The position numbers and the translations under genes are program-made. This document shows, piece after piece, positions 2,500-40,680 of a stretch of DNA of 64,000 bases. The first letter of the stretch is position 1. Every line of letters begins with the position of its first letter. This stretch comes from Halarcobacter sp. GTDB lineage: Bacteria > Campylobacterota > Campylobacteria > Campylobacterales > Arcobacteraceae. The stretch lies in the NCBI GenBank assembly GCA_030145305.1, contig JAQYVX010000004.1, forward strand, positions 62,001-126,000, written 5' to 3'. The notes under the pieces are model-generated. The model made no database searches, was not told where the DNA came from, and was given only the letters and a program-made list of their open reading frames with translations.

Positions 2500-3162
2500 A
2501 TGAAACTTCTACCAAGCTTAATCTTCACTTCTATTTTAACACTAAGCCTTGCTCACGCGCAAACAACAATGTGTTTTAAAGAAAATCATAAATCAATAAG
2601 CACAATTGAGACTACATCACTAAATGGTGGAGAATGTCAAAACCAAAAATCTGTACAAGATATGAAAAAAGAGGGTTGGAGTGTTGCTGATATAGATATT
2701 AGTAAAACAGAAAATGGTTCTAATTATATATATATTTTCAAAAAAGAAGAACTTGTTTTATCTTCAGTAAATGAAAAAGCCCTAGAAGAAAAGATTCTTC
2801 AAAGATTAGAAGAAAGAAAAACTTTAGAGCTTGCAACAAAGAAAAAAGAAGTAAAAATGAGAATGTCAAAAGATGGTAAAAAACTATATATAAACAAATG
2901 CCAAAGCTGTCATGGTGAAAATGCAAATGAAATATATGGAACATCACGAGCTTTAACAGAACTTAACTTTTTTGATTTTAAAACAACTCTTAGAGATTAT
3001 GGCTTAGGTGAATATGATAGAGGACAAGCTTTTGTTATGCTTCCTTATGCAAATCTTATGGATTCAAGAGATGTTAAAAATGTTTATTCTTATATCAATA
3101 GTTTAAAACCAAAAGAAAATCAAAAAGATACTCAAAAAGAAATAATTGAAGAAGCAAAATAA
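2500..3162 (+). CDS. Periplasmic monohaem c-type cytochrome
   Basis: A 220-residue protein with an N-terminal signal peptide (MKLLPSLIFTSILT, cleavage after AHA). It has one haem c attachment site, CQSCH at about residues 134-138, and a candidate axial Met in the C-terminal VMLPY segment. Residues 25-90 form a small Cys-containing domain that I do not recognise. A charged, Lys/Glu-rich linker (about 85-125) joins it to the cytochrome. It presumably carries electrons or senses redox state in the periplasm; the partner is unknown. prfB starts 3 bases after its stop, so the two are co-transcribed, with no obvious functional link. Confidence 0.8.
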   Translation: MKLLPSLIFTSILTLSLAHAQTTMCFKENHKSISTIETTSLNGGECQNQKSVQDMKKEGWSVADIDISKTENGSNYIYIFKKEELVLSSVNEKALEEKILQRLEERKTLELATKKKEVKMRMSKDGKKLYINKCQSCHGENANEIYGTSRALTELNFFDFKTTLRDYGLGEYDRGQAFVMLPYANLMDSRDVKNVYSYINSLKPKENQKDTQKEIIEEAK

Positions 3163-3165
3163 TAT

Positions 3166-4263
3166 ATGGATGCTTACGAATATTCAGAGCTATTAAAACT
3201 TCTTAATACAAAGTTAGAAAATATTAGAAATATCTTAAAGCCTGAAGCTTTATCTTCAAGGCTAAATGAGATTAATGAATTAGAATCTAAACAAGATTTT
3301 TGGAATGATGTTGAGAATGCTACAAAAATAGGTATTGAAAAAAATAGACTTCTTTCAAAATTAAATAAATTTAATAAAGCAAATGAAGCATTAAGTGCTA
3401 CGAATGAACTTTATGAATTAGCTCAAGAAGATAGAGATGATGAGACTCTTGAACTATTGCATGAAGAATCAAAAGACTTAGATGAACTGATTAAATCAAC
3501 TGAAATATCTGTTATGCTTTCAAGTCCTGATGATATTTCAAATGCTATTATTTCTATTCACCCAGGAGCTGGGGGTACAGAGTCACAAGATTGGGCAGCC
3601 ATGCTTTATAGAATGTACATAAGATGGGCTGAGAGACAAAATTTCAAAATAGAACTTCTTGATTATCAAGATGGTGAAGAAGCAGGAATCAAAGATGTAT
3701 CTTTTATTATAAAAGGTGAAAATGCTTACGGATATTTGAAAACTGAAAATGGAATACATAGACTAGTTCGTATTTCACCTTTTGATTCAAATGCAAAAAG
3801 ACATACCTCTTTTGCTTCAGTGATGGTAAGTCCAGAGATTGATGATAATATTGATATTGTGATTGAAGATAAAGATATTAGAATTGATACATATCGAGCA
3901 AGTGGAGCTGGTGGACAACATGTTAATAAAACAGAATCAGCAATTAGAATTACACATATTGCTACAAATATTGTAGTTCAATGTCAAAATGATAGATCAC
4001 AGCATAAAAATAAAGCAAGTGCTATGAAAATGCTAAAATCGAGATTATATGAATATGAACTTGAACTTCAACAAGCTTCTAAAGATGGAGTTGAAAAAAG
4101 TGATATTGGGTGGGGACATCAAATTCGTTCTTATGTCATGCAACCATACCAACAAGTAAAAGATACAAGAAGTAATACTGGATATTCAAATGTAGATGCA
4201 ATTTTAGATGGAGATATTACAAAAATAATAGAAGATGTTTTAATAGCACAATCTTCAAAATAA
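3166..4263 (+). CDS. prfB: Peptide chain release factor 2
   Basis: RF2 recognises UGA and UAA stop codons and triggers peptide release on the ribosome. The protein is 365 residues, normal length. It has the SPF stop-codon recognition tripeptide at 204-206 and the catalytic GGQ at 249-251 inside GAGGQHVNK. The frame runs uninterrupted from the ATG, so the autoregulatory +1 frameshift found in many bacterial prfB genes is absent here. It starts 3 bases after the cytochrome gene, with no separate promoter visible. Confidence 0.97.
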
Positions 4264-4324
4264 CAATTAATTATATAAATTGTTTACTTTATATGCAAAA
4301 TTTTAGAAAAAATTAAAAAAATTA

Positions 4325-4333
4325 TGGCATAAT
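4325..4333 (+). promoter_or_regulatory. Extended -10 promoter of second porin
   Basis: TG at 4325-4326, one base, then CATAAT at 4328-4333, in an A/T-rich region between prfB and the second porin. The predicted start near 4340 gives a leader of about 26 nt, much shorter than that of the first porin. Confidence 0.6.
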
Positions 4334-4365
4334 CTTTTTCAACACAAAACATAAAAGGAAATTAA

Positions 4366-5487
4366 ATGACAAAAATTGTAAAAATGAGTTTAATAGCTGC
4401 AATCGCGGTAGCTGGAACAACTGCATCTGCTCAACCACTAGCAGAAGCAATTAAGAATGTAGACGTATCAGGAACTGCTGCATACAGATATAATGATTAT
4501 GAGCCATCAAACTCTACATCTAATAACTATAAAGTAGCAATAGATTTAAAATCAAAAGTTAATGATGATGTTACTTTTAATACAAGAATCCAAGCAGGTA
4601 AAGAGGGTTCTACAGCAAATGCTAGTTTAAATACTTCAAATGCTGCAGATACTAATCTTGATATTGAAGTATCTGAAGTTAACTTTGTTTATACAGGTGT
4701 AAATAATTTAGCTGTTACTGTTGGTAAACAAGCTATTGCTACTCCATGGACTGTTGCTAGAGATGCAATGGGTGATGAACAAACTGGTACAGGTGCTTTA
4801 GCAGTTTATAATGTTGGTCCTGTTACATTAGTTGGGGCATACTTTAATCAAACTAACTTTAATAACTCTGGAGATATAACTACTCTTACAAACGGTAGCG
4901 ATGATATTTATGTTCTTGGAGCAATGGGTTCATTCTCAGGTGTATCTGTTGACGCATTTTATGCTGATTTAAATGATGTTTTTGATTCTTACACAGTAGG
5001 TGTATCTGGAAACTTTGATCTTGGAAGTGTTTCATTATCTCCATTTGCTAGATACTCTTCTTTAGATTTAGATGCTGCAAGTAATGATAATGCTTTATGG
5101 CAATTAGGTCTAGGTGCAAAAATGGGAATATTCTCTGCATTTGCAGCTTATGGTGAAAGTGATGACGAAGGTGGAGTAGTATATATTGATTCAGGTTCAA
5201 AAACAAATATGGATTACCACTGGAGAATAACTGCTGGAGGTCAAGCTGATGCAGCATATACATATATTCATGCAACTGCAGATGTAACAGAAAAAGTAAA
5301 TGTAGGTCTTTTTTACTCTGATGCAGATTATGATACAGCAGGGGATAATGACGCAAATGAAGTTTATGGACAAGTTAAATATAAAATGTCAAACAACTTC
5401 ACTACTTACGTAAGATATGGTCAATTAGATGTTGATGGATCTAGTAAAGCTAATATGGGTAGAGTTCACGTTCAATACTCTTTCTAA
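4366..5487 (+). CDS. Major outer-membrane porin, MOMP-like (copy 2)
   Basis: A 373-residue porin paralogous to the one at 1221-2381. The signal peptide (MTKIVKMSLIAAIAVAG, cleavage after ASA) is followed by the same mature start (QPLAEAIKNVDVSGT), and the protein ends in VHVQYSF, the typical C-terminal barrel signature. Similarity is highest at both ends and around the GKQ.ATPWTVA.D segment; loop regions differ in length and sequence, as expected for surface loops. The ribosome site is AAAGGA, 7 bases before the ATG. It has its own promoter and terminator, so the two porins can be expressed independently. Confidence 0.9.
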   Translation: MTKIVKMSLIAAIAVAGTTASAQPLAEAIKNVDVSGTAAYRYNDYEPSNSTSNNYKVAIDLKSKVNDDVTFNTRIQAGKEGSTANASLNTSNAADTNLDIEVSEVNFVYTGVNNLAVTVGKQAIATPWTVARDAMGDEQTGTGALAVYNVGPVTLVGAYFNQTNFNNSGDITTLTNGSDDIYVLGAMGSFSGVSVDAFYADLNDVFDSYTVGVSGNFDLGSVSLSPFARYSSLDLDAASNDNALWQLGLGAKMGIFSAFAAYGESDDEGGVVYIDSGSKTNMDYHWRITAGGQADAAYTYIHATADVTEKVNVGLFYSDADYDTAGDNDANEVYGQVKYKMSNNFTTYVRYGQLDVDGSSKANMGRVHVQYSF

Positions 5488-25609: not shown

Positions 25610-25704
25610 AGTTTTTTTATTAAATATCACTTTTTTTACTTTTTTACCAATTTTTTAATGTAAATTAATAAAAAATATTAGTTTTTTTATTAAATATCAC
25701 TTTT
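25610..25704 (+). repeat. 25-bp exact direct repeat upstream of frdC
   Basis: Two identical 25-base copies at 25610-25634 and 25680-25704, 70 bases apart, each A/T-rich and ending in AAATATCACTTTT. The second copy abuts the frdC promoter, with its CACTTTT in the -35 position. A related element (AAATATTCACTTTT and AAACATCACTTTT) occurs twice before aspA at about 29344 and 29383. It is probably a regulator-binding array rather than a mobile-element scar. Confidence 0.75.
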
Positions 25705-25727
25705 AGGTCATTTAGACGCATTAGAAT
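25697..25727 (+). promoter_or_regulatory. frdC promoter with TCA/TCA direct repeat
   Basis: The -10 box is TAGAAT at 25722-25727. TCA elements at 25697-25699 and 25708-25710 are 11 bases apart, and the first begins 25 bases before the -10 box. aspA and dcuB show the same geometry. The predicted start near 25734 gives a leader of about 21 nt. Confidence 0.6.
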
Positions 25728-25754: not shown

Positions 25755-26522
25755 ATGGAAAAAATAATTGAAGCCTTTACAGGAGTTACACCAGAAGGTA
25801 AAAAAAGTAGGACTCCAGCAAGACTGGACAAACTTTTAACTGGAACTGGAGTAGTTTTAGCAATATTTATGATGGCTCATATGTTTTTCGTATCTACAAT
25901 TTTACTTGGTGAAAAAACAATGTACACTGTTACAAAAATGTTTGAACTGGATTTTATGTTTGAGGGTGGTTTACCTTTTATTATAAGTATCTTTGTTGCA
26001 ATCATTACAGCAATACTTGTTGTTCACGCAATCTTAGGAATAAGAAAGTTCCCAACTTCGTATAAAGCATATATAAGAATCAAACAACATGCAAAAATGA
26101 TGAAACACTCAGATACATCAATGTGGATGTTCCAATGGATAAGTGGTTTAATGATGATGTTTTTGGCAAGTATACATTTATATATTATGTTTACTCAACC
26201 TCAAAATATTGGTCCATATGCAAGTGCAAATAGAATTGTAAATGAACATATGTGGCTTTTATATATGGTTTTATTAATCTGTGTTGAATTACATGGTTCT
26301 ATTGGACTTTATAGAGCAGCAATGAAATGGGGATGGTTTGATGGTGAAAATCCAAAAGAAACTAGAAAGAAAATGATTAAAGCTAAAAAAATGGTAAGTT
26401 ATTTTTTCTTAACTTTAGGAGCTATAACATTGTTAGCATATATAAAAATCGGTATTGAAAAAGGTGATTCTCTTCCTATGAAGTATTCTCCAACAACTTA
26501 TCAAGAAATTATTAAAAAGTAA
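25755..26522 (+). CDS. frdC: Fumarate reductase cytochrome b subunit FrdC
   Basis: A 255-residue dihaem cytochrome b that anchors fumarate reductase and oxidises menaquinol. It is of the large Wolinella/Campylobacter type, not the short FrdC/FrdD pair of E. coli. Five membrane helices are visible. Histidines in or near the helices ([33 protein letters not shown]) are the haem ligand candidates. The ATG follows AAAAGGAG. It is first in frdCAB, 10 bases before frdA. Confidence 0.94.
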
Positions 26523-26532
26523 GGGACCTATA

Positions 26533-28515
26533 ATGAATATTAAATATTGTGATGCATTAGTAGTTGGTGGTGGATTAGCAGGATTACGTTCTGCTGTTGC
26601 TGCTGCACAAAAAGGATTAAGTACAACTGTATTAAGTTTAGTTCCTGTAAAAAGGTCTCATAGTGCCGCTGCTCAAGGTGGAATGCAAGCTTCTTTAGGA
26701 AATGCAAAAATGAGTGAAGGTGATAATGAAGATGTTCACTTTTCAGATACAGTAAAAGGAAGCGATTGGGGATGTGATCAAGAAGTTGCAAGAATGTTTG
26801 TAACAACTGCACCAAAAGCAATTAGAGAATTAGCAGCATGGGGTGTGCCTTGGACAAGAATTAAAAAAGGTAATCATGATGCAGTTATAAATACAAAACT
26901 AACAACAATCTTTGAAGATGATAATAAGCATGGTCTTATTAACTCAAGAGATTTTGGTGGAACTAAAAAATGGAGAACCTGTTATACATCAGATGCAACA
27001 GGTCATACAATGCTTTTTGCAGTTGCAAATGAAGCTTTAAAATTAAATGTAAATATTGAAGATAGAAAAGAAGCAATTGCCTTGATTCATGAGGAAGGTA
27101 AATGTTATGGAGCTATTGTAAGAGATTTAATTACAGGTGAAATTATAGCTTATGTTGCAAAAGGAACTTTAATTGCAACTGGTGGTTATGGAAGACTTTA
27201 TGAAACTACTACAAATGCAGTTATCTGTGAAGGTATTGGTACCGCTATTGCATTAGAAACTGGTATTGCAAAACTTGGGAATATGGAAGCTGTTCAATTC
27301 CACCCAACTCCTCTTTTCCCATCAGGAATTTTATTAACAGAAGGTTGTCGTGGAGATGGTGGAGTTTTAAGAGATAAAGATGGACATAGATTTATGCCTG
27401 ATTATGAACCTGAGAAAAAAGATTTAGCATCAAGAGATGTTGTATCAAGAAGAATGGTTGAACATATAAGAAAAGGGAAAGGTGTTGATTCTCCATATGG
27501 AAAACATCTTTGGCTAGATATTTCTATTCTTGGTCGTGAGCATATTGAAAAAAACTTAAGAGATGTACAAGAAATTTGTGAATACTTTGCAGGAATTGAT
27601 CCAGCTGATGAAGGTCAAAAAGGTTGGGCTCCTGTTCACCCTATGCAACATTACTCAATGGGTGGAATTAGAGTTAAACCTACCGGAGAGTCTCAAACAT
27701 TAGCAGGTTTATTTTCTGCGGGAGAAGCTGCTTGTTGGGATATGCATGGATTTAATAGACTTGGAGGAAACTCTGTTTCTGAAACAGTTGTTGCAGGAAT
27801 GATTGTTGGTAATTTCTTTGCAGACTATTGTATAGAAAATCAAATTGATATTAAAACTTCTGTAATTGAAAAATTTGTATTTGAACAAGAATCTTATATG
27901 AAAGAGCTTATTGATAGAAAAGGTAGCGAAGACGTATTTAGAATTAAAAATAGAATGAAAAAATTAATGCAAGAATATGTTGGAATCTTTAGAGATGGAG
28001 AAGGCTTAGATAAAGCAGTTAATGAACTTGAAGAGTTATATATTAACTCTAAAAATATTCAAATTAGAGATAAACAATTATATGCAAATCCTGAGTTAGA
28101 AGAAGCATATAGAGTTCCAATGATGCTTAAACTTGCACTTTGTGTTGCAAAAGGAGCTTTAGATAGAACAGAATCTAGAGGAGCACATACAAGAGAAGAT
28201 TATCCAAAAAGAGATGATGCAAATTGGTTAAAAAGAACTCTTACTTCATGGGTAGATGGTGATACTATGCCAAAAATCGAATATGAAGAATTAAATATTA
28301 ACACTATGGAAATTCCTCCAGGATTTAGAGGATATGGAGCAAAAGGGAACTTAATTGAAAACCCACAAAGTGAAATTAGACAACAAGAAGTTGATGTAAT
28401 GACGGAAAAACTTGAAGCAGAAGGTAAAGATAGATACGAAATTCAAGATGCACTTATGCCTTTCCCATTACAAGATGAATATAAAAGAAAAAATGTAAGA
28501 TTAGGAGATAAGTAA
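26533..28515 (+). CDS. frdA: Fumarate reductase flavoprotein subunit FrdA
   Basis: The catalytic subunit that reduces fumarate to succinate. The 660-residue protein has the FAD motif GGGLAGL (12-18), the covalent-FAD His43 in [10 protein letters not shown], the active-site segment HPTPLFPSG...EGCRGDGG and [12 protein letters not shown] near residue 415. Its length matches the Campylobacterota enzymes, which are longer than E. coli FrdA. The stop codon shares a base with the frdB start (TAATG), indicating coupled translation. Confidence 0.97.
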
Positions 28516-29249
28516 TGGCACGAGAACTAACAATTAGAATCCTTAGATATAATCCACAGGATGCTGTTAATGGTAACAATTTAAGACCACGTTTTCAAGA
28601 GTATAAAATAGAAGAAACACCAAGTATGACAATCTATTTAGCTCTTACAAAAATTAGAGAAACTCAAGATGCGGGATTAGCTTTTGACTTTGTTTGTCGT
28701 GCTGGTATTTGTGGCTCTTGTGCTATGATGATTAATGGGCGTCCAAAACTTGCTTGTAGATGTTTAACAAAAGATTTACCAGAAGAGATTGTACTACTTC
28801 CTCTTCCTGCATTTAAACTAATAAAAGATTTATCAGTTAATACAGGTGTATGGATGGATGAAATGTCAAAAAGAGTTGAATCGTGGATTCACACGTCTAC
28901 TCAAACTGATATTGCACAAATTGAAGAGCCTATTGAACCAGAAGTTGCTGATGCAGTATTTGAACTTGATCGTTGTATTGAGTGTGGTATTTGTGTTGCT
29001 GGTTGTGGAACAAAACTTATTAATGAAGATTTTGTTGGAGCTGTTGGATTAAATAGAGTTGCAAGATTTGAATGTGATCCACATGATGACAGAACTGCGG
29101 ATGATTTTTATGAGTTAGTTGGTGATGATAACGGTATTTTTGGATGTATGACACTATTAGCTTGTGAAGATACTTGTCCAAAACATTTACCTTTACAAAA
29201 TAAAATTGCTTACATGAGAAGAAAATTAGCGACAGTAAAAGGTTCTTAA
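28515..29249 (+). CDS. frdB: Fumarate reductase iron-sulfur subunit FrdB
   Basis: The 244-residue subunit carrying three iron-sulfur clusters between FrdC haems and FrdA FAD. An N-terminal ferredoxin domain has CRAGICGSC (from Cys61) and LACRC; the C-terminal domain has CIECGICVAGCG and CMTLLACEDTCPKHLP. It overlaps frdA by one base and ends the frd operon, with a terminator 48 bases downstream. Confidence 0.97.
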   Translation: MARELTIRILRYNPQDAVNGNNLRPRFQEYKIEETPSMTIYLALTKIRETQDAGLAFDFVCRAGICGSCAMMINGRPKLACRCLTKDLPEEIVLLPLPAFKLIKDLSVNTGVWMDEMSKRVESWIHTSTQTDIAQIEEPIEPEVADAVFELDRCIECGICVAGCGTKLINEDFVGAVGLNRVARFECDPHDDRTADDFYELVGDDNGIFGCMTLLACEDTCPKHLPLQNKIAYMRRKLATVKGS

Positions 29250-29343: not shown

Positions 29344-29418
29344 AAATATTCACTTTTTTTAATAAAACTACTTTTTTTACAAAAACATCACTTTTAGTTC
29401 ATTTTAGAGGATTACAAT
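29344..29418 (+). promoter_or_regulatory. aspA promoter with TCA/TCA direct repeat
   Basis: The -10 box is TACAAT at 29413-29418. TCA elements lie at 29388-29390 and 29399-29401, 11 bases apart, and the first begins 25 bases before the -10 box, as at frdC. An 18-base stretch from 29388 matches the frdC site at 16 positions. A further ATTCACTTTTTTT element lies at 29348-29360. The leader is about 59 nt. Confidence 0.6.
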
Positions 29419-29483: not shown

Positions 29484-30890
29484 ATGGCTACAAGATTAGA
29501 ACATGATTTAATTGGAGAAAAAGAAATTCCAATTAATGCTTATTATGGTGTACAAAGTTTAAGAGCACAAGAAAACTTTGCAATAACAGGGGTATCACTA
29601 TCTCAATTCCCTACTTTTATTACGTCACTTGCAAAAGTAAAAAAAGCAGCTGCATTAGCAAACTATGAATTAGAATTATTAAATGAAAAGAAAAAAGATG
29701 CAATTTGTGAAGCTTGTGATGAAATCATTGCTGGTAAATTACATGATCAATTTATTGTAGATGTAATTCAAGGTGGAGCTGGGACTTCAACTAATATGAA
29801 TGCAAATGAAGTTATTGCAAATAGAGGATTAGAACTTTTAAAACATAAAAAAGGAGAATATAAATTCTTACATCCAAATAATGATGTAAATTTATCTCAA
29901 TCTACTAATGATGCATATCCAACTGCATTTAGAATTGCATTATTTGAAAAAATTTATGAATTAATAGATTCAATGAAAGTTTTAAGAACAAGCTTTTCTA
30001 ATAAATCTATAGAATTTAATGATGTTATTAAAATGGGTAGAACACAACTTCAAGATGCTGTACCTATGACTTTAGGACAAGAATTTCACACTTACTTAAC
30101 TATGATAAATGAAGATATTCAAAGATTAATTGAATGTCAACAACTAGTTAGAGAAATGAACTTAGGAGCTACTGCAATTGGAACAGGTATTAATTCACAT
30201 CCTGATTATGCTTGTTTAGTTGAAGAAAAACTTCAAGAAGTTACAGGTCGTCCTTTTGTTACAGCAAAAGATTTAGTTGAAGCAACACAAGATACAGGTG
30301 CATATGTACAAATATCTGGTGTATTGAAAAGAGTTGCAACTAAATTATCTAAAATTTGTAATGATTTAAGACTTTTAAGTTCTGGACCTAGAACTGGATT
30401 TAATGAAATAAATCTTCCAGCTATGCAACCTGGTTCTTCTATTATGCCAGGAAAAGTTAATCCAGTAATTCCTGAAGTTGTAAATCAAGTTGCATTCCAA
30501 GTAATTGGAGCAGATGTTACTATTACAATGGCTAGTGAAGGTGGACAATTACAATTAAATGTATTTGAACCTGTAATTGCATATAACTTATTTAATTCAA
30601 TTAATATGATGAAAAATGCAGTTGAAACACTTAGTGTTAAATGTATTGATGGAATCACAGCTAATAAAGAACGTTGTGAACAGTTAGTATTACATAGTAT
30701 TGGTTTAGTAACTGCTTTAAATCCTACTATTGGATATGAAAACTCTACATCTGTAGCAAAAGAAGCTTTAGATAGTGGAAGATCAGTTTATGAAATTGTT
30801 TTAGAAAGAGAATTATTAACAAAAGAAGAATTAGATGAGTTAATTAAGCCGGAGAATATGATTCAGCCAAGAATGGTTTGTAAAAAATAG
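29484..30890 (+). CDS. aspA: Aspartate ammonia-lyase AspA
   Basis: AspA splits aspartate to fumarate and ammonia, supplying the electron acceptor for fumarate reductase. The 468-residue protein has the fumarase/aspartase signature GSSIMPGKVNP at about 317-327, TSTNMNANEVIANR near the active site, and the substrate-binding SQSTNDAYPTA. It follows AAAAGGA and its own promoter. dcuA starts 29 bases downstream, so aspA-dcuA is probably one transcript that imports and deaminates aspartate. Confidence 0.97.
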   Translation: MATRLEHDLIGEKEIPINAYYGVQSLRAQENFAITGVSLSQFPTFITSLAKVKKAAALANYELELLNEKKKDAICEACDEIIAGKLHDQFIVDVIQGGAGTSTNMNANEVIANRGLELLKHKKGEYKFLHPNNDVNLSQSTNDAYPTAFRIALFEKIYELIDSMKVLRTSFSNKSIEFNDVIKMGRTQLQDAVPMTLGQEFHTYLTMINEDIQRLIECQQLVREMNLGATAIGTGINSHPDYACLVEEKLQEVTGRPFVTAKDLVEATQDTGAYVQISGVLKRVATKLSKICNDLRLLSSGPRTGFNEINLPAMQPGSSIMPGKVNPVIPEVVNQVAFQVIGADVTITMASEGGQLQLNVFEPVIAYNLFNSINMMKNAVETLSVKCIDGITANKERCEQLVLHSIGLVTALNPTIGYENSTSVAKEALDSGRSVYEIVLERELLTKEELDELIKPENMIQPRMVCKK

Positions 30891-30919: not shown

Positions 30920-32221
30920 ATGTTAATTTTAGAGATCTTAGTTGTTATTATGGCTATATTTATTGGAGCGAGGTTTGGTGGTATTGGAATTGGATATGCG
31001 GGGGGACTAGGTGTTTTAGTTCTATGCTTATTCTTTGGTTTAGAACCAGGAAGTATCCCAATTGACGTTATTCTAATCATCATGTCAGTTATTGCAGCAA
31101 TTGCAGCAATGCAAGTAGCAGGTGGATTAGATTATATGGTTAAAGTAGCAGAAGGTATTTTAAGAAGAAATCCAAAACAAATTACATATTTAGCTCCTGC
31201 CGTTACATATTTTATGACAATCTTAGCAGGTACTGGTCACACAGCTTACGCTACTTTACCAGTAATTGCTGAAGTTGCAAAAGAACAAGGAATTAGACCT
31301 TCAAGACCTTTAGGTATTGCAGTTGTTGGTTCACAAATTGCTATTACAGCATCACCAATCTCAGCAGCACTTGTATTCTTAAGTGGTATTTTAGAACCTC
31401 TTGGAGTTGGGTATATTGAAATCTTAGCTGTTACTATTCCTACAACTTTCGCAGCTGTTATGCTTACAGCATTTGTTTCAAACTTCTTAGGAAAAGACTT
31501 AATTGATGATGAAGTTTACAAAGAAAGATTAGAAAAAGGTTTAGTTAAATTAAGAGGTGAAACAAAAGTTGAAATCAAAAAAGGTGCTAAATTATCTGTA
31601 GCAATCTTTATTACAACTATCTTTGCTGTTGTTACTTACGCAACTCTAATTAGTAAAAAAGTTGCGGTTATTGTAGACCCTTCTTTACCTAGAAATGCAG
31701 CTATTATGGTATTTATGTTAGCTTGTGCTTCAATAATTGTTTGGGCTTGTAAAGTTGATACAGGAAAAATTCTTAATGCATCAACATTTAAATCAGGTAT
31801 GAGTGCTTGTATTTGTGTACTTGGTGTTGCTTGGTTAGGTACAACTTTTGTAGGAGCTCACATTGATGAAATCAAAGGTTTTGCAAGTACATTATTAAGT
31901 CAATATCCATGGATGTTAGCTGTTACATTATTCTTTGCAAGTATGTTATTATACTCTCAAGGTGCAACTACAAAAGCTCTTATGCCAGCGGCATTAGCTT
32001 TAGGTGTTGATCCAGTAACTGCGGTTGCATCATTTGCAGCAGTAAGTGCATTATTTGTATTACCTACATATCCAACACTACTTGCAGCTGTTGAAATGGA
32101 TGATACAGGTTCAACAAGAATTGGTAAATATGTATTCAATCACCCATTCTTAATTCCAGGAGTTATGGCAATTACATTAAGTGTAATCTTTGGATTTATC
32201 TTAGGAAATATAATTTTATAA
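30920..32221 (+). CDS. dcuA: C4-dicarboxylate transporter DcuA
   Basis: A 433-residue inner-membrane antiporter, about 10-12 helices, for aspartate, fumarate and succinate exchange. It resembles E. coli DcuA more than DcuB across its length: FIGARFGGIGIGYAGGLG at the start, AAMQVAGGLDYMVK, GMSACICVLGVAWLGTTFV in the second half, and TGSTRIGKYVFNHPF near the end. It follows aspA closely, after AAGGAG, which fits aspartate uptake feeding AspA. Confidence 0.95.
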   Translation: MLILEILVVIMAIFIGARFGGIGIGYAGGLGVLVLCLFFGLEPGSIPIDVILIIMSVIAAIAAMQVAGGLDYMVKVAEGILRRNPKQITYLAPAVTYFMTILAGTGHTAYATLPVIAEVAKEQGIRPSRPLGIAVVGSQIAITASPISAALVFLSGILEPLGVGYIEILAVTIPTTFAAVMLTAFVSNFLGKDLIDDEVYKERLEKGLVKLRGETKVEIKKGAKLSVAIFITTIFAVVTYATLISKKVAVIVDPSLPRNAAIMVFMLACASIIVWACKVDTGKILNASTFKSGMSACICVLGVAWLGTTFVGAHIDEIKGFASTLLSQYPWMLAVTLFFASMLLYSQGATTKALMPAALALGVDPVTAVASFAAVSALFVLPTYPTLLAAVEMDDTGSTRIGKYVFNHPFLIPGVMAITLSVIFGFILGNIIL

Positions 32222-32314: not shown

Positions 32315-33376
<1,062 letters not shown>

Positions 33377-33449: not shown

Positions 33450-35657
33450 ATGAAACTAAAAGTTTTTTTATTTTTAATAAGTCTTCTTCTATTATCAAAT
33501 ACCAACATTTTCGCAAATAGTAATAAAAATGTCCTTATTATCAATTCATATCATAGAGGTTTTCAATGGAGCGATGACGTTTTAAATGGTATTGAATCAA
33601 TTTTATATGATACTAAAGTGAATTCTACAGTTTGGTATATGGACTCAAAGAGAATATCATCTGACATTTATAATAAAGAGTTAAAAGATATATATAAACT
33701 ACAACTTTCAAAAAGTGATTATGATTTAGTAGTTGCTATTGATAAATTTGCTTATGAATTTATATTACAAAACTATAGTGAGTTATTTACTGATGAAACT
33801 ATATTCTTTGTTGGTATTGAACAATTCTCTCAAAGCGAAGTAAAAAAATATAATTTAGAAAAAAAAGTATCAGGATTAGTTGAAAAAAGAGCTGTTAGTG
33901 ATATGGTAAAAATGATATATAAATTAATACCAAAGTTAAAAAAACTATATATTATTAATGACAAAAGTGAGAATGGAAATGATACTGATCCTTTTATTAA
34001 AAGTGCGATAAATGATTTAAACAATGAATTTGAGATTGAATACATAAGAAATTCAACTTTAGATGATTTAAAAGAAAAATTTTCAACCCATGTCTACAAT
34101 GAAGCTGTTTTTTTTATTCGATTTTATAATGATAAAGATGGCAATTTATATAGAAACAATCAAATTGCAGAGATGATAAATGCAAGTAAACTACCTGTTT
34201 TTACTACTGATACTTTGTTTATTGGAAAAGGTTCTACAGGGGGGAAACTAGTTCCTATAAAAGATTTAGGAGAAAAAGCAGGAAGAGATATTGTAGGAAT
34301 GTTAGAAGAATCCCTTTCAACTCCATTTGTTCAAACAGCAGAAGACTTTGAATATATTTTTGATTTTCAGAAAATAAAAGAGTTTAGATTACCAATAAAT
34401 ACTTTGGGGGTTGATTATGAATATATAAATTATCCAGAAGGTTTTTTAGATAAGAATCGACAATTTGTAGACTTTGTTTTTTTAATGTCTCCTTTTTTAT
34501 TATTCTTAATTCTAGGACTTGTTCATAATTTATACCTTAGAATTAAAAATACTAAATTGCTTAAACAAAGAATGGAATTTGATAAGGTTTTATTAAATTC
34601 CATAAAAAATCCAATTGTATGGCAAGATGAAAAAGGTGAAGTTGTTGATTCAAATTCAAAATTTTGTGATTTTATGGAATTATCTTGTCCTAGGGTAAAA
34701 GGCAAAAAATTAAAAGATTATTTAAGTTTAAACCCTTCTACTACTATTTGTAAAACTTTAGAACCTTTTATTAATAATACTCTTGAGGAAAATAAACTAG
34801 TTATAAAAGGAAAAGACAATAAAGAACACACTTACTTAATAGATCAAACAAACTACACTGAAGATATTTTTAAAACAAAAGGTACAGTTACTATATTTAC
34901 TGATATTACAAAAGAAACCCAAGCTTTAAAAGAAAAAAGAAAACACCAAGAATTTATTATTCAACAATCAAAACTTGCAGAAATTGGTGAAGTATTCTCT
35001 TCAATTGCTCATCAATGGAAAACTCCACTTGTAGAAATTGCAACTATTGCACAAGAAAGACTTTATTATGATGAAGGTGAAGTTGATGAAGAGAATAATG
35101 ATTATGTAAATGATATAATGGTCCAAGTTAAATATATGACTGAAACAATCAATAGTTTTCAAAAATTCATTATGCCTTCAACACAAAAAATTGTTTTTGA
35201 TATAGAAGAGTCTGTAAAAGAAATGTTAGAAATTATTCGTCATAATATGAAGTATAATTATATAAATGTAAATGTGAAGGTAGAAGAAAATACGAACTTA
35301 ATGATTTTAGGTTATAAAAATGAGCTAATGCAAACTCTTTTAAATATTGTTAATAATGCAAAAGAGTCTATTATTAATCAAAAAAGTAAAGATAAAATTT
35401 CACAAGGTATTATAAATATTAATATAAAAAATATAAATAATAAAGTTCAAATAGATATAGAAGATAATGGTTCAGGAATTCCAGAAAAATACATTAATCA
35501 AATATTTGAAGCATATTTTACTACTAAAAATGATGGACATGGGATAGGTTTATATATGGCTAGATTAATTATTGAAGATAAAATTGGAGGAAAGATAAGT
35601 GCCTCAAATACAAATAATGGTGCAAAATTTACTATATTATTGGAGTTGACAAAATGA
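33450..35657 (+). CDS. Sensor histidine kinase with ABC-type periplasmic sensor domain (pair 1)
   Basis: A 735-residue membrane kinase. It has a signal peptide or first helix (1-23), a periplasmic domain at about 28-310 resembling ABC substrate-binding proteins of the PF04392 type (starts NVLIINSYHRGF), a second membrane helix at about 345-368, a PAS-like region at about 380-490, the phospho-acceptor His521 in SSIAHQWKTPL, and an ATPase domain (NIVNNAKES, DNGSGIP, HGIGLYMAR). There is no HAMP domain. The sensor fold suggests detection of a small solute, possibly aspartate, asparagine or a dicarboxylate given its neighbours. It overlaps its regulator by 4 bases. Confidence 0.88.
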   Translation: MKLKVFLFLISLLLLSNTNIFANSNKNVLIINSYHRGFQWSDDVLNGIESILYDTKVNSTVWYMDSKRISSDIYNKELKDIYKLQLSKSDYDLVVAIDKFAYEFILQNYSELFTDETIFFVGIEQFSQSEVKKYNLEKKVSGLVEKRAVSDMVKMIYKLIPKLKKLYIINDKSENGNDTDPFIKSAINDLNNEFEIEYIRNSTLDDLKEKFSTHVYNEAVFFIRFYNDKDGNLYRNNQIAEMINASKLPVFTTDTLFIGKGSTGGKLVPIKDLGEKAGRDIVGMLEESLSTPFVQTAEDFEYIFDFQKIKEFRLPINTLGVDYEYINYPEGFLDKNRQFVDFVFLMSPFLLFLILGLVHNLYLRIKNTKLLKQRMEFDKVLLNSIKNPIVWQDEKGEVVDSNSKFCDFMELSCPRVKGKKLKDYLSLNPSTTICKTLEPFINNTLEENKLVIKGKDNKEHTYLIDQTNYTEDIFKTKGTVTIFTDITKETQALKEKRKHQEFIIQQSKLAEIGEVFSSIAHQWKTPLVEIATIAQERLYYDEGEVDEENNDYVNDIMVQVKYMTETINSFQKFIMPSTQKIVFDIEESVKEMLEIIRHNMKYNYINVNVKVEENTNLMILGYKNELMQTLLNIVNNAKESIINQKSKDKISQGIININIKNINNKVQIDIEDNGSGIPEKYINQIFEAYFTTKNDGHGIGLYMARLIIEDKIGGKISASNTNNGAKFTILLELTK

Positions 35658-36316
35658 AAGTATTAGTTCTTGAAGACAATGAAAGATTATGTAATCTAAT
35701 AAAACAAGCCCTTTCAAAAAGTGGTTATATAGTTGATACTACAAATGATGGAGCAGAAGCTTTGCATATGATTGCAAATGGATATTCTTGTTTTATTTTA
35801 GATATAAATGTTCCTTCTATGGATGGAATATCAATTTTGGAAGCTGTAAGAATGTACCATAAAGATGTACCTGCAATAATTATTAGCTCAAATCATGACT
35901 TAGAAAAAATACAAAAATCTTATGAAATAGGTTGTGATGATTATTTAAAGAAACCATTTTTTATGTATGAACTTATAAAAAAAGTACAAAAACTTTGTCA
36001 AATTAAATCTCCTTTATTAAACTTAGGTAATGGCTTTATTTTTGATTACAATAAACATTTTCTAATGAAAGATGGAGAAGAAATAAAATTAGCAAAAAAA
36101 GAGATACTTTTCTTAGAGCTTTTAGCAAAAGATATTCATAGAGTTTTTAGTTTTAATGAAATTGAAGACTTTGTTTGGGAGGGAGAAGAAACAACACTTA
36201 TAAATGTTAGAGCCCTTGTTAAAAGATTAAGAAAAAAAATACCAGAAAAATCAATTAAAATCGTAAAAGGAATTGGTTATTCAATTGATGCTGACGAGAT
36301 TCCTGAACAGAAATAA
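35654..36316 (+). CDS. OmpR-type response regulator (pair 1)
   Basis: A 220-residue regulator. The receiver domain (1-115) has the acidic pair Glu7-Asp8, phospho-acceptor Asp50 (FILDINVPSMDG), Ser78 and Lys in YLKKPF. The C-terminal winged helix (about 130-215) has LAKKEILFLELLA, VWEGEE and VRALVKRLRKKI. It is coupled to kinase 1 through ATGA. The regulator of pair 2 is a close paralogue with blocks of identity, for example AIIISSNHDLEKIQKSYEIG. Likely targets are the dicarboxylate genes nearby. Confidence 0.9.
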   Translation: MKVLVLEDNERLCNLIKQALSKSGYIVDTTNDGAEALHMIANGYSCFILDINVPSMDGISILEAVRMYHKDVPAIIISSNHDLEKIQKSYEIGCDDYLKKPFFMYELIKKVQKLCQIKSPLLNLGNGFIFDYNKHFLMKDGEEIKLAKKEILFLELLAKDIHRVFSFNEIEDFVWEGEETTLINVRALVKRLRKKIPEKSIKIVKGIGYSIDADEIPEQK

Positions 36317-36354
36317 AGAAATTATATCTCTTTATTTCTCCTAAGAAAGAGATA
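36309..36354. terminator. Overlapping hairpins between two convergent response regulators
   Basis: An 11-bp stem (36309-36319 with 36329-36339) overlaps an alternative 9-bp stem (36325-36333 with 36346-36354). T-rich sequence follows on the plus strand and the complement gives U-rich sequence on the minus strand. The two mutually exclusive hairpins would each end one of the convergent transcripts. Confidence 0.6.
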
Positions 36355-36997
36355 CTTTTTTATTTAAAGAATAGCCTAGTCCTTTAACGATAATAATACT
36401 ATTGTCAGGCAACTTCTTTCTTAATCTTTTTATCATAGATCTAATATTCACTAAAGAAGTCTCTTCACCTTCCCAGACATACTCTTCAAGCTTCTCATAA
36501 GTGGCAACATGATGTAAATTTTTTGAAAAAAGTTCTAAGAAAAGTATCTCTTTTTTTGTAAGTTCATACTCCTCATTGTTTTGAAATAATCTATGATTTA
36601 TAAAATCGTATCTACAAGTATCACTAAAACTTAAAAACATTTTAGGCAAAACACAAAGTTTTTTTATTTTTTGAATAAGTTCTAATATATAAAAAGGCTT
36701 TTTTATATAATCATCACAACCTATTTCATAAGATTTTTGTATTTTTTCTAGGTCATGATTTGAGCTAATTATGATTGCTGGAATATTAGAGTGATTTAAT
36801 CTTATGTATTCAAGAATAGATATTCCATCTAAATTTGGAACATTAATATCTAAAATAAAACATGAGTAGCCATTTCCTAAAGCTTCAAAAGCATCATCAC
36901 CATCATAAAAACAATCCACAAAATATGATTCTCGTTCTAAAGCAGATTTAATTACTCCTGCTAATCTTTCATTATCTTCAAGTACTAGTATTTTCAC
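36341..36997 (-). CDS. OmpR-type response regulator (pair 2)
   Basis: A 218-residue paralogue of the regulator at 35654-36316. The receiver has Glu7-Asp8, Asp50 in FILDINVPNLDG and Lys in YIKKPF; the winged helix has LTKKEILFLELFS, VWEGEE and IRSMIKRLRKKL. Recognition-helix residues differ modestly (NVRALVKRLRKKI versus NIRSMIKRLRKKL), so DNA targets may overlap. Its start lies 20 bases inside the 3' end of kinase 2. Confidence 0.9.
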   Translation of the reverse strand: MKILVLEDNERLAGVIKSALERESYFVDCFYDGDDAFEALGNGYSCFILDINVPNLDGISILEYIRLNHSNIPAIIISSNHDLEKIQKSYEIGCDDYIKKPFYILELIQKIKKLCVLPKMFLSFSDTCRYDFINHRLFQNNEEYELTKKEILFLELFSKNLHHVATYEKLEEYVWEGEETSLVNIRSMIKRLRKKLPDNSIIIVKGLGYSLNKKVSLS

Positions 36998-39161
36998 AGA
37001 TATGTCCTAATTTTATTTTGAAGCATGCTCCCGCATTCTTATTTTTTACAGATATTTTTCCACCCATTTTATCTTCAACAATCATTCTTGTCATATACAG
37101 TCCTATTCCATGCCCTTCTTTTTTAGTTGAATAGTATGGTTTAAAAATTTTATCTATATCTTTACCCTCTATTCCTCCAGCATTATCTTGAATAATAATA
37201 ATCAAATTTTCCTTATAATTAGAAAGTTTTATATCAATTTTTCTATTTTTATAATCATTATTTAAGAGTGCATCTTTTGCATTATTTATAATATTTAAGA
37301 ATGATTGCATAAATTCATTTTTATATCCATAAATTTCTAAACAAGTATTATCTTCAACTTCTATATTTATTTTTACATTATTATACTTCATATTATGATT
37401 TACAATTTCTAACATTGAATCAATTGCTTCTTTTATATTAAATTGAAATTTTTTATTTGAAGGCATTATAAAATTTTGAAAATCATTTATAGTATTTGTC
37501 ATATAATCAACTTGTTTCATAATATCACTTACAAAACTCTCATCTTCTTTTATTGCGTCACATTTTCTTGTATAAAAAAGCTCTTGTGCAATTGCTGTTA
37601 TTTCAACAAGTGGAGACTTCCATTGATGAGCAATAGAAGAGAAGACTTCCCCTATTTCTGCAAGTTTTGATTGTTGGACTATAAACTGTCTATTTTTTTG
37701 CTTTTCTCTTGCTATTTCTTGTTCTTTTGTTATATCAGTAAAAATTGTAACCAATCCTTCACTTTTACTTTTTTCATCTCTAAATCTTTCTTGCTTAACT
37801 AAATATACTATTTTCTTCGAATTTTCATCAAAATACTCAAATTCATAATTTTCAATTTGATTTTCTTTATATAAATCAAGGACTTCTATAATTTTTGTAA
37901 CATTTTTATTTTCGTTCAAATCATTAAGCTTTTTACCATATAAATTTTTGCATTCTAATTTTAGTAATTTACAAAAAGTTCTATTTGAGTCAACAATTAT
38001 TCCTTTGTCATTTTGCCAAAATATTGGACTCTCAATTGCATTTAATAAAACCTCATCAAAGTCAATTCTTTGTCTTAATTCTTTTTCAACTTGTTTTCTC
38101 ATATAAATATTATGAATAAGTCCTAATATTAAAAATACAAGTAAAGGAGATAAGGTAAAAACAAACTCTATAAGTCTTCTATATTTATCATAAAAGGTTA
38201 GTCTTTTATTAACTAATTCAAAAGGTTGCGAAATTGTATTAAAAAGTAAAGCAAATTCACTTAATTTTTGAGCATCAAAAATATAGTGTAAATCTTCAGA
38301 AACAACAACTCTAAACTCTTTTTTATCTAAAATATTAAGTGCCATTTGCCCTGCTGTTTCTCCAAAACGGTTTAAATCAACGAGTTTCCCACCTACTGCT
38401 CCTTTATTAATAAATATTGAATCTGTAATAAATATTGGTATTTTCGAATCTTTAATAAACTTTGCAATTAATTGATTTTTATTTAATTCTCCATTTTTAT
38501 TTTTATAAAATCTTATAAAAAGTGCAGCACTGTTCTTTTCATGTTTAGAAAATCTTTTTTGCAAATTGTCTAAATTGTCTTCTTTTAAATAAACAAGCTC
38601 ATATTTATTGTTAAAGTCTTTTATTAATTTTCTAATAAGAGGTTCAGTATGTAAAGCATTAAGACTTTTATCATTTATTATATATAGTTTCTTAATTGAA
38701 GGCATTAGATTTTCTATTACTTTAATATTACTTTTCAAATCTCTTCTTTCAAGTAAAGCAGAAACTCTATTATCAACGCCATATTGTATTGCTTTTGCTT
38801 TTGAGAAGTTTTCTATTCCAACTGCTAATATTGGTTCATTCTTAAAAAATTTATTTGAAACTTCTAAAACAAAATCATATGCAAATCTATCAATTGCTAT
38901 TATTAAATCATATTTTCTATTTTTAAGTTGTACACTATAGAGATTTGCAAGATTATCATAGTATTCTTTACTAGTAACTCTTTTTGAGTCCATATACAGG
39001 ATATTTATATCTATATCTGGATACGTATATAATTTACGTTCTATTCCAGCTACTATACTATCACTAAATTCATATCCTTTGTGATATGAATTAATCACTA
39101 AAATATTTGCAGCAAAAATAAATTCTATATTTAGAATTAAAATTAAGATTATTCTTTTCAT
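36978..39161 (-). CDS. Sensor histidine kinase with ABC-type periplasmic sensor domain (pair 2)
   Basis: A 727-residue paralogue of kinase 1 with the same layout: signal helix (1-18), ABC-type sensor domain (about 19-305, starts NILVINSYHKGY), a helix at about 337-360, a PAS-like region, phospho-acceptor His512 in SSIAHQWKSPL, and an ATPase domain with NIINNAKDA, DNAGGI and HGIGLYMTR. The sensor domains diverge more than the kinase cores, so ligands may differ. It is divergent from dcuB. No ribosome site is seen before the ATG, and the promoter geometry suggests a leaderless transcript. Confidence 0.88.
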   Translation of the reverse strand: MKRIILILILNIEFIFAANILVINSYHKGYEFSDSIVAGIERKLYTYPDIDINILYMDSKRVTSKEYYDNLANLYSVQLKNRKYDLIIAIDRFAYDFVLEVSNKFFKNEPILAVGIENFSKAKAIQYGVDNRVSALLERRDLKSNIKVIENLMPSIKKLYIINDKSLNALHTEPLIRKLIKDFNNKYELVYLKEDNLDNLQKRFSKHEKNSAALFIRFYKNKNGELNKNQLIAKFIKDSKIPIFITDSIFINKGAVGGKLVDLNRFGETAGQMALNILDKKEFRVVVSEDLHYIFDAQKLSEFALLFNTISQPFELVNKRLTFYDKYRRLIEFVFTLSPLLVFLILGLIHNIYMRKQVEKELRQRIDFDEVLLNAIESPIFWQNDKGIIVDSNRTFCKLLKLECKNLYGKKLNDLNENKNVTKIIEVLDLYKENQIENYEFEYFDENSKKIVYLVKQERFRDEKSKSEGLVTIFTDITKEQEIAREKQKNRQFIVQQSKLAEIGEVFSSIAHQWKSPLVEITAIAQELFYTRKCDAIKEDESFVSDIMKQVDYMTNTINDFQNFIMPSNKKFQFNIKEAIDSMLEIVNHNMKYNNVKINIEVEDNTCLEIYGYKNEFMQSFLNIINNAKDALLNNDYKNRKIDIKLSNYKENLIIIIQDNAGGIEGKDIDKIFKPYYSTKKEGHGIGLYMTRMIVEDKMGGKISVKNKNAGACFKIKLGHICENTST

Positions 39162-39177: not shown

Positions 39178-39252
39178 AATCTACATAAAAACGCATTTCT
39201 AAAAAATAAAAGTTAGATATAAAATAAATATTAATATTTATTTTTTATATTG

Positions 39253-39283
39253 TCATACTAAAGACATTTTACGAGATTATAAT
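39253..39283 (+). promoter_or_regulatory. dcuB promoter with TCA/ACA direct repeat
   Basis: The -10 box is TATAAT at 39278-39283. TCA (39253-39255) and ACA (39264-39266) are 11 bases apart, and the first begins 25 bases before the -10 box, exactly as at frdC and aspA. CATTTT after the second element is shared with aspA. The leader is about 47 nt and includes a small stem (39301-39306 with 39314-39319). Confidence 0.55.
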
Positions 39284-39336: not shown

Positions 39337-40680
39337 ATGGAATTTAGTATTCAATTGTTTATTGTTTTAGCAGTGCTTTTCTTCGGTGCAAGAAAAGGAG
39401 GTTTAGCCCTCGGACTGTTTGGTGGAATCGGTGTTGTTATTTTAGTATTTGGATTTGGATTAGCTCCTGGTAATCCTCCTATTAAAGTTATGTTAGTAAT
39501 GTTAGCTGTAATTTCAGCTGGTGCAACATTACAAGCTTCTGGTGGATTAGATGTTATGCTTCAATTAGCTGAAAAACTTTTAAGAAAACATCCAAAATAT
39601 ATCACTTTGTTAGCTCCATTAACTACTACTACATTAACTTTTCTTTGTGGTACAGGACATGTTGTTTATACTATGCTTCCAATTATCTATGATATTTCTA
39701 TTAAAAGAGGTATTAGACCAGAACGACCAATGGCTGCAAGTACAATTGCTGCACAAATGGGGATAATTACTTCTCCTGTATCAGTTGCAGTTGTTTCTTT
39801 AGTTGCAATGCTTTCAGGGCATACAATGATTAATGGAAAAGAATTAGACTTAATTCAATTATTATCAATTACTATTCCAGGAACTTTATGCGGTGTATTA
39901 TTAATTGGTCTTTGGAGTATGTTTAGAGGGAAAAATCTTGAAGATGATCAAGAATTCCAAGATAAAATTAAAGATCCAGAAATGAAAAAATACATTTATG
40001 GTGAAAACAAAACATTATTAGATCAAAAATTACCACAATATCAATGGAATTCAATGTGGATTTTCCTTGGAGCAATCGCGGTTGTTGCAACATTAGGTGC
40101 CTTCCCAGAATTAAGACCAGTTATTAATGGTAAAGCTTTATCAATGGTTTATGTAATTCAAATGTTTATGTTAGCAGCAGGTGCTATTATCTTTGTTGTA
40201 GCAAAAGTAAAACCAGCAACTATTGCAAGTAATGAAGTGTTTAAATCTGGTATGGTTGCATTAATTGCAGTATACGGTGTAGCATGGATGACTAAAACAA
40301 TGTTTGGTGCTCACATAGGAGATATAAAAGAAATGCTAGGTGGAATTGTAATTCAATATCCTTGGGCTTATGCTTTAGCTTTAGTATTTGTTTCAAAACT
40401 AGTAAACTCTCAAGGTGCAGCATTAGCAGCTATGGTACCACTTGCACTTTCTGTTGGCGTTGATCCAGGAGTAATTGCAGCATTCGCAGCGGCTTGTTAC
40501 GGATATTATATCTTACCAACATACCCAAGTGATTTAGCGGCAATCAGTTTTGACCGTTCAGGAACAACAAGAATTGGTAAATATGTTATCAATCACAGTT
40601 TTATTATTCCAGGAATTATTGGAGTAACAACTTCATCAACAGTTGGATTTATTCTTGCTAAATTCTATGGAATTATTTAA
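39337..40680 (+). CDS. dcuB: Anaerobic C4-dicarboxylate transporter DcuB
   Basis: A 447-residue inner-membrane fumarate/succinate antiporter, about 10-12 helices. It follows E. coli DcuB more closely than Dcu[68 protein letters not shown], and [17 protein letters not shown] near the end. In fumarate respiration it exports succinate in exchange for fumarate. It is divergent from kinase 2 and has its own promoter and terminator. Confidence 0.95.

Follow-up and report, generated by a model that had tools for sequence, protein, structure and literature searches.

What do two related two-component systems do side by side in one dicarboxylate locus, and how did they come to lie there? The question is raised by a 64,000-nucleotide stretch of Halarcobacter sp. 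DNA, hereafter the window (contig JAQYVX010000004.1, positions 62,001 to 126,000; coordinates count from its first letter), in a source genome of 3.03 Mb in 77 contigs. We called and translated open reading frames (ORFs) over the 64 kb, assigned domains with Pfam, and named genes partly with NCBIfam. The ORF coordinates bear out the layout given in a preliminary description of this DNA: a kinase and regulator (HK_A, RR_A) on the plus strand meet a second pair (RR_B, HK_B) on the minus strand tail to tail, with 24 bp between the 3' ends of the RR_A and RR_B genes. ORFs and families likewise place dcuA-ansB on one side and dcuB on the other, so that C4-dicarboxylate and aspartate genes flank both systems, as had been stated. 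The carrier names hold, since the dcuA and dcuB products are 61% and 66% identical to Escherichia coli DcuA and DcuB, respectively, and only 38% and 37% identical to the opposite E. coli carrier. The frdCAB genes and aspA, upstream of dcuA, and three operator-like sites were absent from that description (Table 1).

With a probability of roughly 0.7, we read the locus as two parallel C4-acid circuits built on old paralogues turned neighbors, A for aspartate and B for C4-dicarboxylates, which meet at a hybrid operator upstream of frdCAB. HK_A would sense aspartate, or aspartate/fumarate, through a periplasmic domain of the type I periplasmic-binding-protein fold and phosphorylate RR_A; this regulator, on an 11-bp direct repeat in place of the -35 box, would activate aspA-dcuA-ansB-HK_A-RR_A and a chemoreceptor gene, with the periplasmic asparaginase supplying aspartate to both the HK_A sensor and DcuA. 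HK_B would sense non-amino C4-dicarboxylates (fumarate, malate, succinate), and RR_B would act on dcuB (a DASS-family gene in most HK_B relatives) and a paralogous chemoreceptor gene via a repeat of its own set in an identical promoter geometry. The locus would then hold two old paralogous systems with separate operators, possibly converging at one shared target.

Architecture and ancestry of the two systems

Both pairs are of the OmpR/PhoB type: RR_A and RR_B carry Response_reg and Trans_reg_C, and the kinases carry HATPase_c and a phospho-acceptor His. HK_A and HK_B are identical at 340 of 713 positions (48%; 44% in the sensor, 44% in the middle part, and 56% in the kinase part), and RR_A and RR_B at 125 of 212 (59%), with common runs such as AIIISSNHDLEKIQKSYEIGCDDY, in line with the long identical blocks reported earlier. 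The kinase layout proposed in the preliminary description stood in part. ABC_sub_bind (PF04392) and HATPase_c scored above cut-off in both proteins and HAMP had no Pfam match in either, whereas Pfam PAS exceeded its cut-off in HK_B only; HK_A gave no Pfam PAS match, its corresponding region aligning with the HK_B PAS. HisKA fell below cut-off in HK_A and was not among the HK_B matches, the phospho-acceptor His being placed by sequence.

To follow these proteins beyond the window, we surveyed 104 genomes of the family for HK_A and HK_B relatives at E <= 1e-50, and found a match in at least 72. Within the source genome itself, a third kinase, encoded on another contig, resembles HK_A about as closely (50%) as HK_B does (47%). 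Of at least 74 hits, 5 were fragments and were left out (BLAST assigned dropped fragments to HK_B in G065 and G093, and to HK_F in G088); the tree of the other 69, full-length kinases resolved A (16 rows, with three A2 kinases nested inside) and B (27 rows) as separate clades among the matches listed, each including other genera. The regulator tree, from which one unrelated neighbor and three kinases without an adjacent regulator were omitted, agreed with it: the regulators that accompany A-type kinases, 17 in all, group in one clade at 100/100, which excludes the B regulators.

These trees bear directly on the proposal that the locus arose by a local inverted duplication within this lineage, after which the sensor domains diverged, as the paralogy of A and B and their tail-to-tail layout might suggest. 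Such an event would group the A and B rows of end-to-end pairs. We imposed this grouping on the 15 rows concerned in a tree of 42 A, B, and D rows (6 near relatives of 48 removed; A2, E, F, and distant rows excluded), and the log-likelihood fell by 1,006 (approximately unbiased test, p-AU 1.9e-37), which rejects the duplication. Moreover, A alone and B alone each occur in other genomes, among the matches listed. We therefore regard a recent local duplication as extremely improbable; a duplication predating the origin of the family is a distinct matter and may have occurred. Collectively, the trees indicate that A and B are separate old lineages and that the end-to-end layout is a juxtaposition.

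End-to-end A/B pairs were found in at least eight genomes (the window genome, G033, G054, G057, G059, G060, G065, and G066), and both systems are present but apart in five others (G055, G078, G079, G081, and G082, among the matches listed). G033 is a mosaic: its aspA and dcuA are 93-94% identical to those of G030, its HK_A and RR_A 81% and 91% identical to those of G060, and its HK_B 90% identical to that of G032, a member of its own genus; the closest resemblance changes over near the boundary of HK_B and RR_B. The A/B junction in G033 thus looks recombinant, and such a junction seems able to move by recombination.

Candidate operators and their putative targets

Alignments of upstream regions uncovered two distinct 11-bp direct repeats. 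The A repeat, TMACTTTTAGTTCAYTT, lies upstream of aspA in 16 of 16 genomes, and a B repeat resembling TGYCAYAYTAADGNCAY lies upstream of DASS genes and, between dcuB and HK_B, on the strand that encodes dcuB. For counting we used one fixed pattern per operator, shaped on the alignments already viewed (that for B being looser than the one used in genome searches), and excluded 4 of 27 DASS genes, which adjoin neither HK_B nor HK_F. The operators were present in 16/16 aspA, 7/7 dcuB, and 18/23 DASS upstream regions. In all 41 of these, a TAnnnT hexamer starts 27 bases from the operator start, a spacing spotted by eye before being counted; at the other offsets tested (14-45), TAnnnT occurred in at most 4 of the 18 DASS regions and in at most 3 of the aspA or dcuB regions. 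Three further DASS regions combine a TGACA first half with TATCAT at the same offset. In class II activation the regulator replaces the -35 box, and the candidate operator/-10 layout found here would match this arrangement. By eye, the dcuB operator of several relatives also shows the symmetry TGTCAT-N4-ATGACA, which we considered as a divergent switch for HK_B.

Within the window, the A/hybrid pattern gave two exact matches, at aspA and frdC, with 0.03 expected at <=1 mismatch and none of 100 shuffles having two. Across the 104 genomes, the A pattern ACTTTTAGTTCAYTT yielded 62 matches in 45 genomes, against 30 for the reversed control; ORF calls put 37 inside ORFs and 25 in intergenic DNA. 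Seventeen of the intergenic matches lie upstream of aspA, that is, in 17/17 genomes with a clade-A regulator (the 16 above and G077). Chemoreceptor genes account for four more (G000, which is the window genome, G055, G057, and G059), an SDF carrier for one (G059), and one had no gene found beside it (G057). The B pattern produced 36 matches in 29 genomes, against 4 for its control, at 12 DASS genes (one of which, in G058, adjoins an orphan regulator), 6 dcuB, 6 cytochrome b, 1 chemoreceptor gene, 1 frdC, and 10 others. In the source genome, searching A at two mismatches returned 38 matches versus 37 with the pattern reversed, and we therefore kept to sites with at most one mismatch; of its three one-mismatch A sites, only that at frdC looked promoter-like by eye.

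The gene with a B-type operator in six genomes (L233-L238, L244, L246-L248) proved cytochrome b561-like (PF01292) in the one copy tested, which suggests that a formate- or hydrogen-oxidizing partner of fumarate respiration joins the putative B regulon there.

The chemoreceptors add a parallel between the two systems. The sole other exact A site of the source genome lies 96 bp upstream of the gene of a 707-aa chemoreceptor, and the sole other exact B site 44 bp upstream of that of a second one; the two receptors are 55% identical and both of dCache_1 type. R126 and D173 are key ligand contacts in the dCache amino-acid motif (PMC10104139). In our own residue mapping by alignment, four A-operator chemoreceptors keep Asp at the D173 equivalent and have Trp-Tyr after the Arg, and the single B-operator chemoreceptor has Asn and Trp-Phe, respectively, a pattern consistent with an amino acid as the ligand on the A side and a non-amino compound on the B side, as judged from one B receptor.

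At frdC, the hybrid operator TCACTTTTAGGTCATTT, followed in the window by TAGAAT at the offset seen for the other operators, recurs in G059 and G065, with variants in G078 and G080, and B-like sites occupy this position in G032, G067, and G068, for which the matches listed include no HK_A. Circuits A and B may therefore meet at this promoter.

Gene expression in a relative offers a further view of the A locus. In Sulfurospirillum multivorans, aspA (SMUL_2817), dcuA (2818), and ansB (2819) are transcribed as a single unit, and no other genes drop as far in tetrachloroethene (PCE) versus fumarate medium (log2 -9.1, -8.8, and -8.9), while two chemoreceptors are lower by 4.5 and 4.3 log2 (PMC7755780). 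The gene order is that of the A locus, and the part of that report consulted names no regulator for the unit (PMC7755780). The order aspA-dcuA-ansB-HK-RR with an A-type kinase, mostly of ~610-640 aa, is found also in Sulfurospirillum and other Campylobacteraceae records, and no clade-B kinase was among the Sulfurospirillum loci compared. In S. diekertiae JPD-1, aspA-dcuA-ansB precedes a kinase that best matches HK_A and, at 616 aa, lacks roughly the length of the PAS-like region; the accompanying regulator has RR_B as its best match (64%), whereas other Sulfurospirillum regulators best match RR_A.

Shorter kinases of ~610-640 aa also occur at L097 (6635-8467, G091), at L115, and at many Sulfurospirillum loci; they fuse an A-like sensor to a kinase without the PAS-like region and adjoin aspA and an SDF or DcuA carrier gene.

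Several observations weigh against two circuits that act through these repeats. Five of the 23 DASS regions miss the pattern (the three with a TGACA first half, one HK_F locus, and one contig end), and 10 of the 36 B matches fit no scheme, some of them inside ORFs. The B pattern has one match in the window, where 0.16 are expected and 15/100 shuffles have one at <=1 mismatch; this being unremarkable, the case for a B operator comes from conservation and not from the window. G086 and G087, both without clade A, carry an intergenic A match upstream of another carrier gene, and at frdC of G057, a genome that carries both systems, the site is an exact B one. Sulfurospirillum loci with the short kinase show at most a diverged repeat upstream of aspA, and the PCE/fumarate contrast in S. 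multivorans also alters the electron acceptor.

The repeats may instead belong to another OmpR-type regulator, responsive to oxygen, nitrate, or phosphate, with A and B controlling something else. The B repeat resembles a Pho box. There is also a precedent in Campylobacter jejuni, where RacR binds the dcuA, dcuB, and aspA promoters and is tied to low oxygen and nitrate (PMC5293742). By description only, RacRS is, as A and B are predicted to be, a two-component system acting on aspA-dcuA and dcuB promoters, but it is a single system for both carriers, linked to low oxygen and nitrate (PMC5293742). We consider a different regulator unlikely: the A operator accompanies aspA wherever a clade-A regulator was found, and among genomes lacking that regulator only the two just named, of 104, have an intergenic A match. 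Returning to the two-circuit reading, we infer that RR_A and RR_B bind these repeats and activate transcription from them.

Sensor domains and signal specificity

AlphaFold models of the sensor domains reached mean pLDDT (predicted local distance difference test) values of 92.3 and 90.5. The solved structures ranking best against them were TrpX with L-Trp (3lft), a Vibrio protein (3lkv), and CD0873 (6hni, 6hnj), at 14-18% identity. PF04392 above cut-off and the type I binding-protein fold place HK_A and HK_B in an ABC_sub_bind (TrpX-like) kinase class; TrpX and CD0873 share fold and family with these sensors but are substrate-binding proteins, not kinases. Across the 43 sensors compared, 16 from A and 27 from B, nineteen loop positions never vary, and the invariant residues include His16, Lys48, Arg128, Arg205, Asp46, Glu105, and Asp152. 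The conserved loops are predicted, from secondary structure, to line the cleft, and several invariant basic residues fit a diacid ligand. In keeping with an aspartate circuit and a C4-dicarboxylate circuit, the exchange reported is aspartate/succinate for DcuA-type carriers and malate/succinate for DcuB-type ones (PMC10634366). Judging from neighbors and relatives, the two sensors probably recognize related ligands, as the preliminary description had supposed.

Its distinction from E. coli DcuS was equally sound: no Cache match was found in HK_A or HK_B, and DcuS carries sCache_3_2. DcuS-DcuR resembles the present systems in having a kinase and regulator near dcuB, a PAS between membrane and kinase, and, in the roles predicted for A and B, a C4-dicarboxylate logic. 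DcuS differs in its sCache sensor and SPOB-type helices, with only the ATPase part aligning well to HK_A and HK_B, and DcuR lacks the Trans_reg_C that RR_A and RR_B carry. A and B thus show neither the single Cache sensor nor the regulator without an OmpR winged helix of the DcuS/CitA type. No paper on these two systems was among those listed by our literature searches.

If both sensors answered one shared signal, with the same ligand, mutual cross-phosphorylation, and pooled output, the locus would act as a redundant fumarate switch. The invariant loop positions, the near identity of the kinase clades from -16 to +9 around the phosphorylated His, the recognition helix, most of whose residues are common to both clades, and the hybrid operator at frdC all speak for such pooling. 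Against it, the kinase clades differ at +10, +11, +16, +17, +37, and +40, without a common residue at +16, +37, and +40; receiver positions 13, 15, 104, and 105 differ in commonest residue; DNA-binding positions 157, 165, 167, 188, and 202 share no residue; and 12 sensor positions are fixed differently, including 19 (F/Y), 129 (A in 15/16, D in 27), and 208 (N/K), the latter two being candidate specificity positions. Such kinase and receiver positions set partner choice. Clade-specific residues in the likely contact regions and two distinct operators make the systems look largely insulated, which renders pooled output rather improbable and points to mostly separate signaling between A and B.

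Carrier exchange beside a retained kinase

On the A side the neighborhood is stable, with aspA upstream of HK_A in 16/16 genomes; dcuA is missing there only from G076 (15 have it), and ansB only from G059, G066, and G076 (13 have it). HK_B was found in at least 29 genomes (27 intact rows, G065, where it is split over contigs, and G093, where it is divided between two ORFs). A DASS-family sodium-coupled anion symporter gene lies directly upstream of it, on the same strand, in 22 of the 29; in the other seven (G000, G054, G060, G078, G079, G081, and G082), dcuB is divergent from HK_B. Only these seven of the 104 genomes hold a dcuB at least 88% identical to the window copy, nine further genomes with a match having dcuA-like relatives of 41-43% only. 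Conversely, no DASS orthologue (>=76%) was found in the seven: relatives of 37-40% occur in G079, G081, and G082, none in G000, G054, or G060, and G078 is outside the 72 genomes with a DASS match.

Accounting for the dcuB-linked rows takes three changes on the HK_B tree, and a single clade was rejected (difference 154, p-AU 4.7e-64); the carrier thus changed about three times under a kept kinase. Basal HK_B rows and the outgroup row G089 have DASS, which is probably the ancestral HK_B-linked carrier. In three of four g15 genomes, the HK_B-RR_B-dcuB cassette adjoins a resident paralogue, HK_E, and dcuB may have arrived there together with HK_B-RR_B. We discarded recent transfer of dcuB alone, since dcuB identities to the window (88-94%) match those of dcuA (86-94%) in the same six genomes. 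Nor did a sensor change tracking the exchange emerge: among the sensor positions, only one, near the N terminus (gap/Ala/Asn), separates dcuB- from DASS-linked HK_B, and it is not of note.

Retention of the same kinase, regulator, and operator while the adjoining carrier gene was replaced about three times amounts to a natural experiment, and together with a possible shared target it makes insulation and convergence measurable with few sites and proteins. As a broader and still tentative proposal, which we hold somewhat less probable than not, the locus would exemplify paired sense-transport-chase modules for aspartate and C4-dicarboxylates: paralogous kinases, carriers, and chemoreceptors under their own operators of identical geometry would both feed frd via a hybrid operator, and the unrelated B carriers (DASS or DcuB) would have been exchanged repeatedly under an unchanged sensor and operator.

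Some loci depart from these patterns. HK_B is encoded in two ORFs, of 268 and 449 aa, at L087 (G093) and at L159 (Poseidonibacter ostreae). The HK_E paralogue lies beside alaS in six g15 genomes (L048, L052, L056, L058, L061, and L078), a place that HK_B occupies in other genera. A more distant kinase group, ~36-37% identical to HK_A, also adjoins a DASS gene (L044, L091, L092, and L095). At L311 (G058, 3061-5184), a DASS gene with a B operator precedes the gene of a regulator that shares 56% identity with RR_B, and HK_B does not adjoin; by eye, the acidic pocket pair E-D of this regulator has become Q-S, so that a phosphorylation-independent remnant is possible.

Features of the locus

Table 1. 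Genes and operator-like sites of the window discussed in the text
Feature	Coordinates	Strand	Remarks
Hybrid operator TCACTTTTAGGTCATTT upstream of frdC	25697..25713	+	A-type first half, B-like second half; -10 TAGAAT 25722-25727
frdCAB, fumarate reductase	25755..29249	+	NCBIfam assignments for frdC and frdA; frdB named from its position and by eye
A operator TCACTTTTAGTTCATTT, 11-bp direct repeat	29388..29404	+	-10 TACAAT 29413-29418
aspA, aspartate ammonia-lyase	29484..30890	+	TIGR00839 over cut-off
dcuA	30920..32221	+	Pfam and comparison with E. coli DcuA/DcuB
ansB, type II asparaginase	32327..33376	+	TIGR00520 over cut-off; signal-peptide-like N terminus (by eye)
HK_A	33450..35657	+	Periplasmic-binding-protein-like periplasmic sensor (~aa 20-345), membrane segment, PAS-like region, kinase with His521
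RR_A, OmpR/PhoB-type regulator	35654..36316	+	Response_reg and Trans_reg_C
RR_B, OmpR/PhoB-type regulator	36341..36997	-	Response_reg and Trans_reg_C
HK_B	36978..39161	-	Periplasmic-binding-protein-like sensor, membrane segment, PAS, kinase
B operator TGTCATACTAAAGACAT	39251..39267	+	-10 TATAAT of dcuB 39278-39283
dcuB	39337..40680	+	Divergent from HK_B; occupies the DASS symporter place of 22/29 HK_B genomes

A shared terminator between the RR_A and RR_B genes was not distinctive by folding (z -1.5; 18/200 shuffles equally good). The third close kinase of the source genome, 50% identical to HK_A, is encoded at G000:C65:88963-91110 (locus L088), at the head of a cluster that also encodes two DcuC-type carriers, two M20 peptidases, an amidohydrolase, and an OTCase-type enzyme; these families were assigned by testing members of the same clusters. 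This set perhaps serves carbamoyl-aspartate or allantoin-like compounds.

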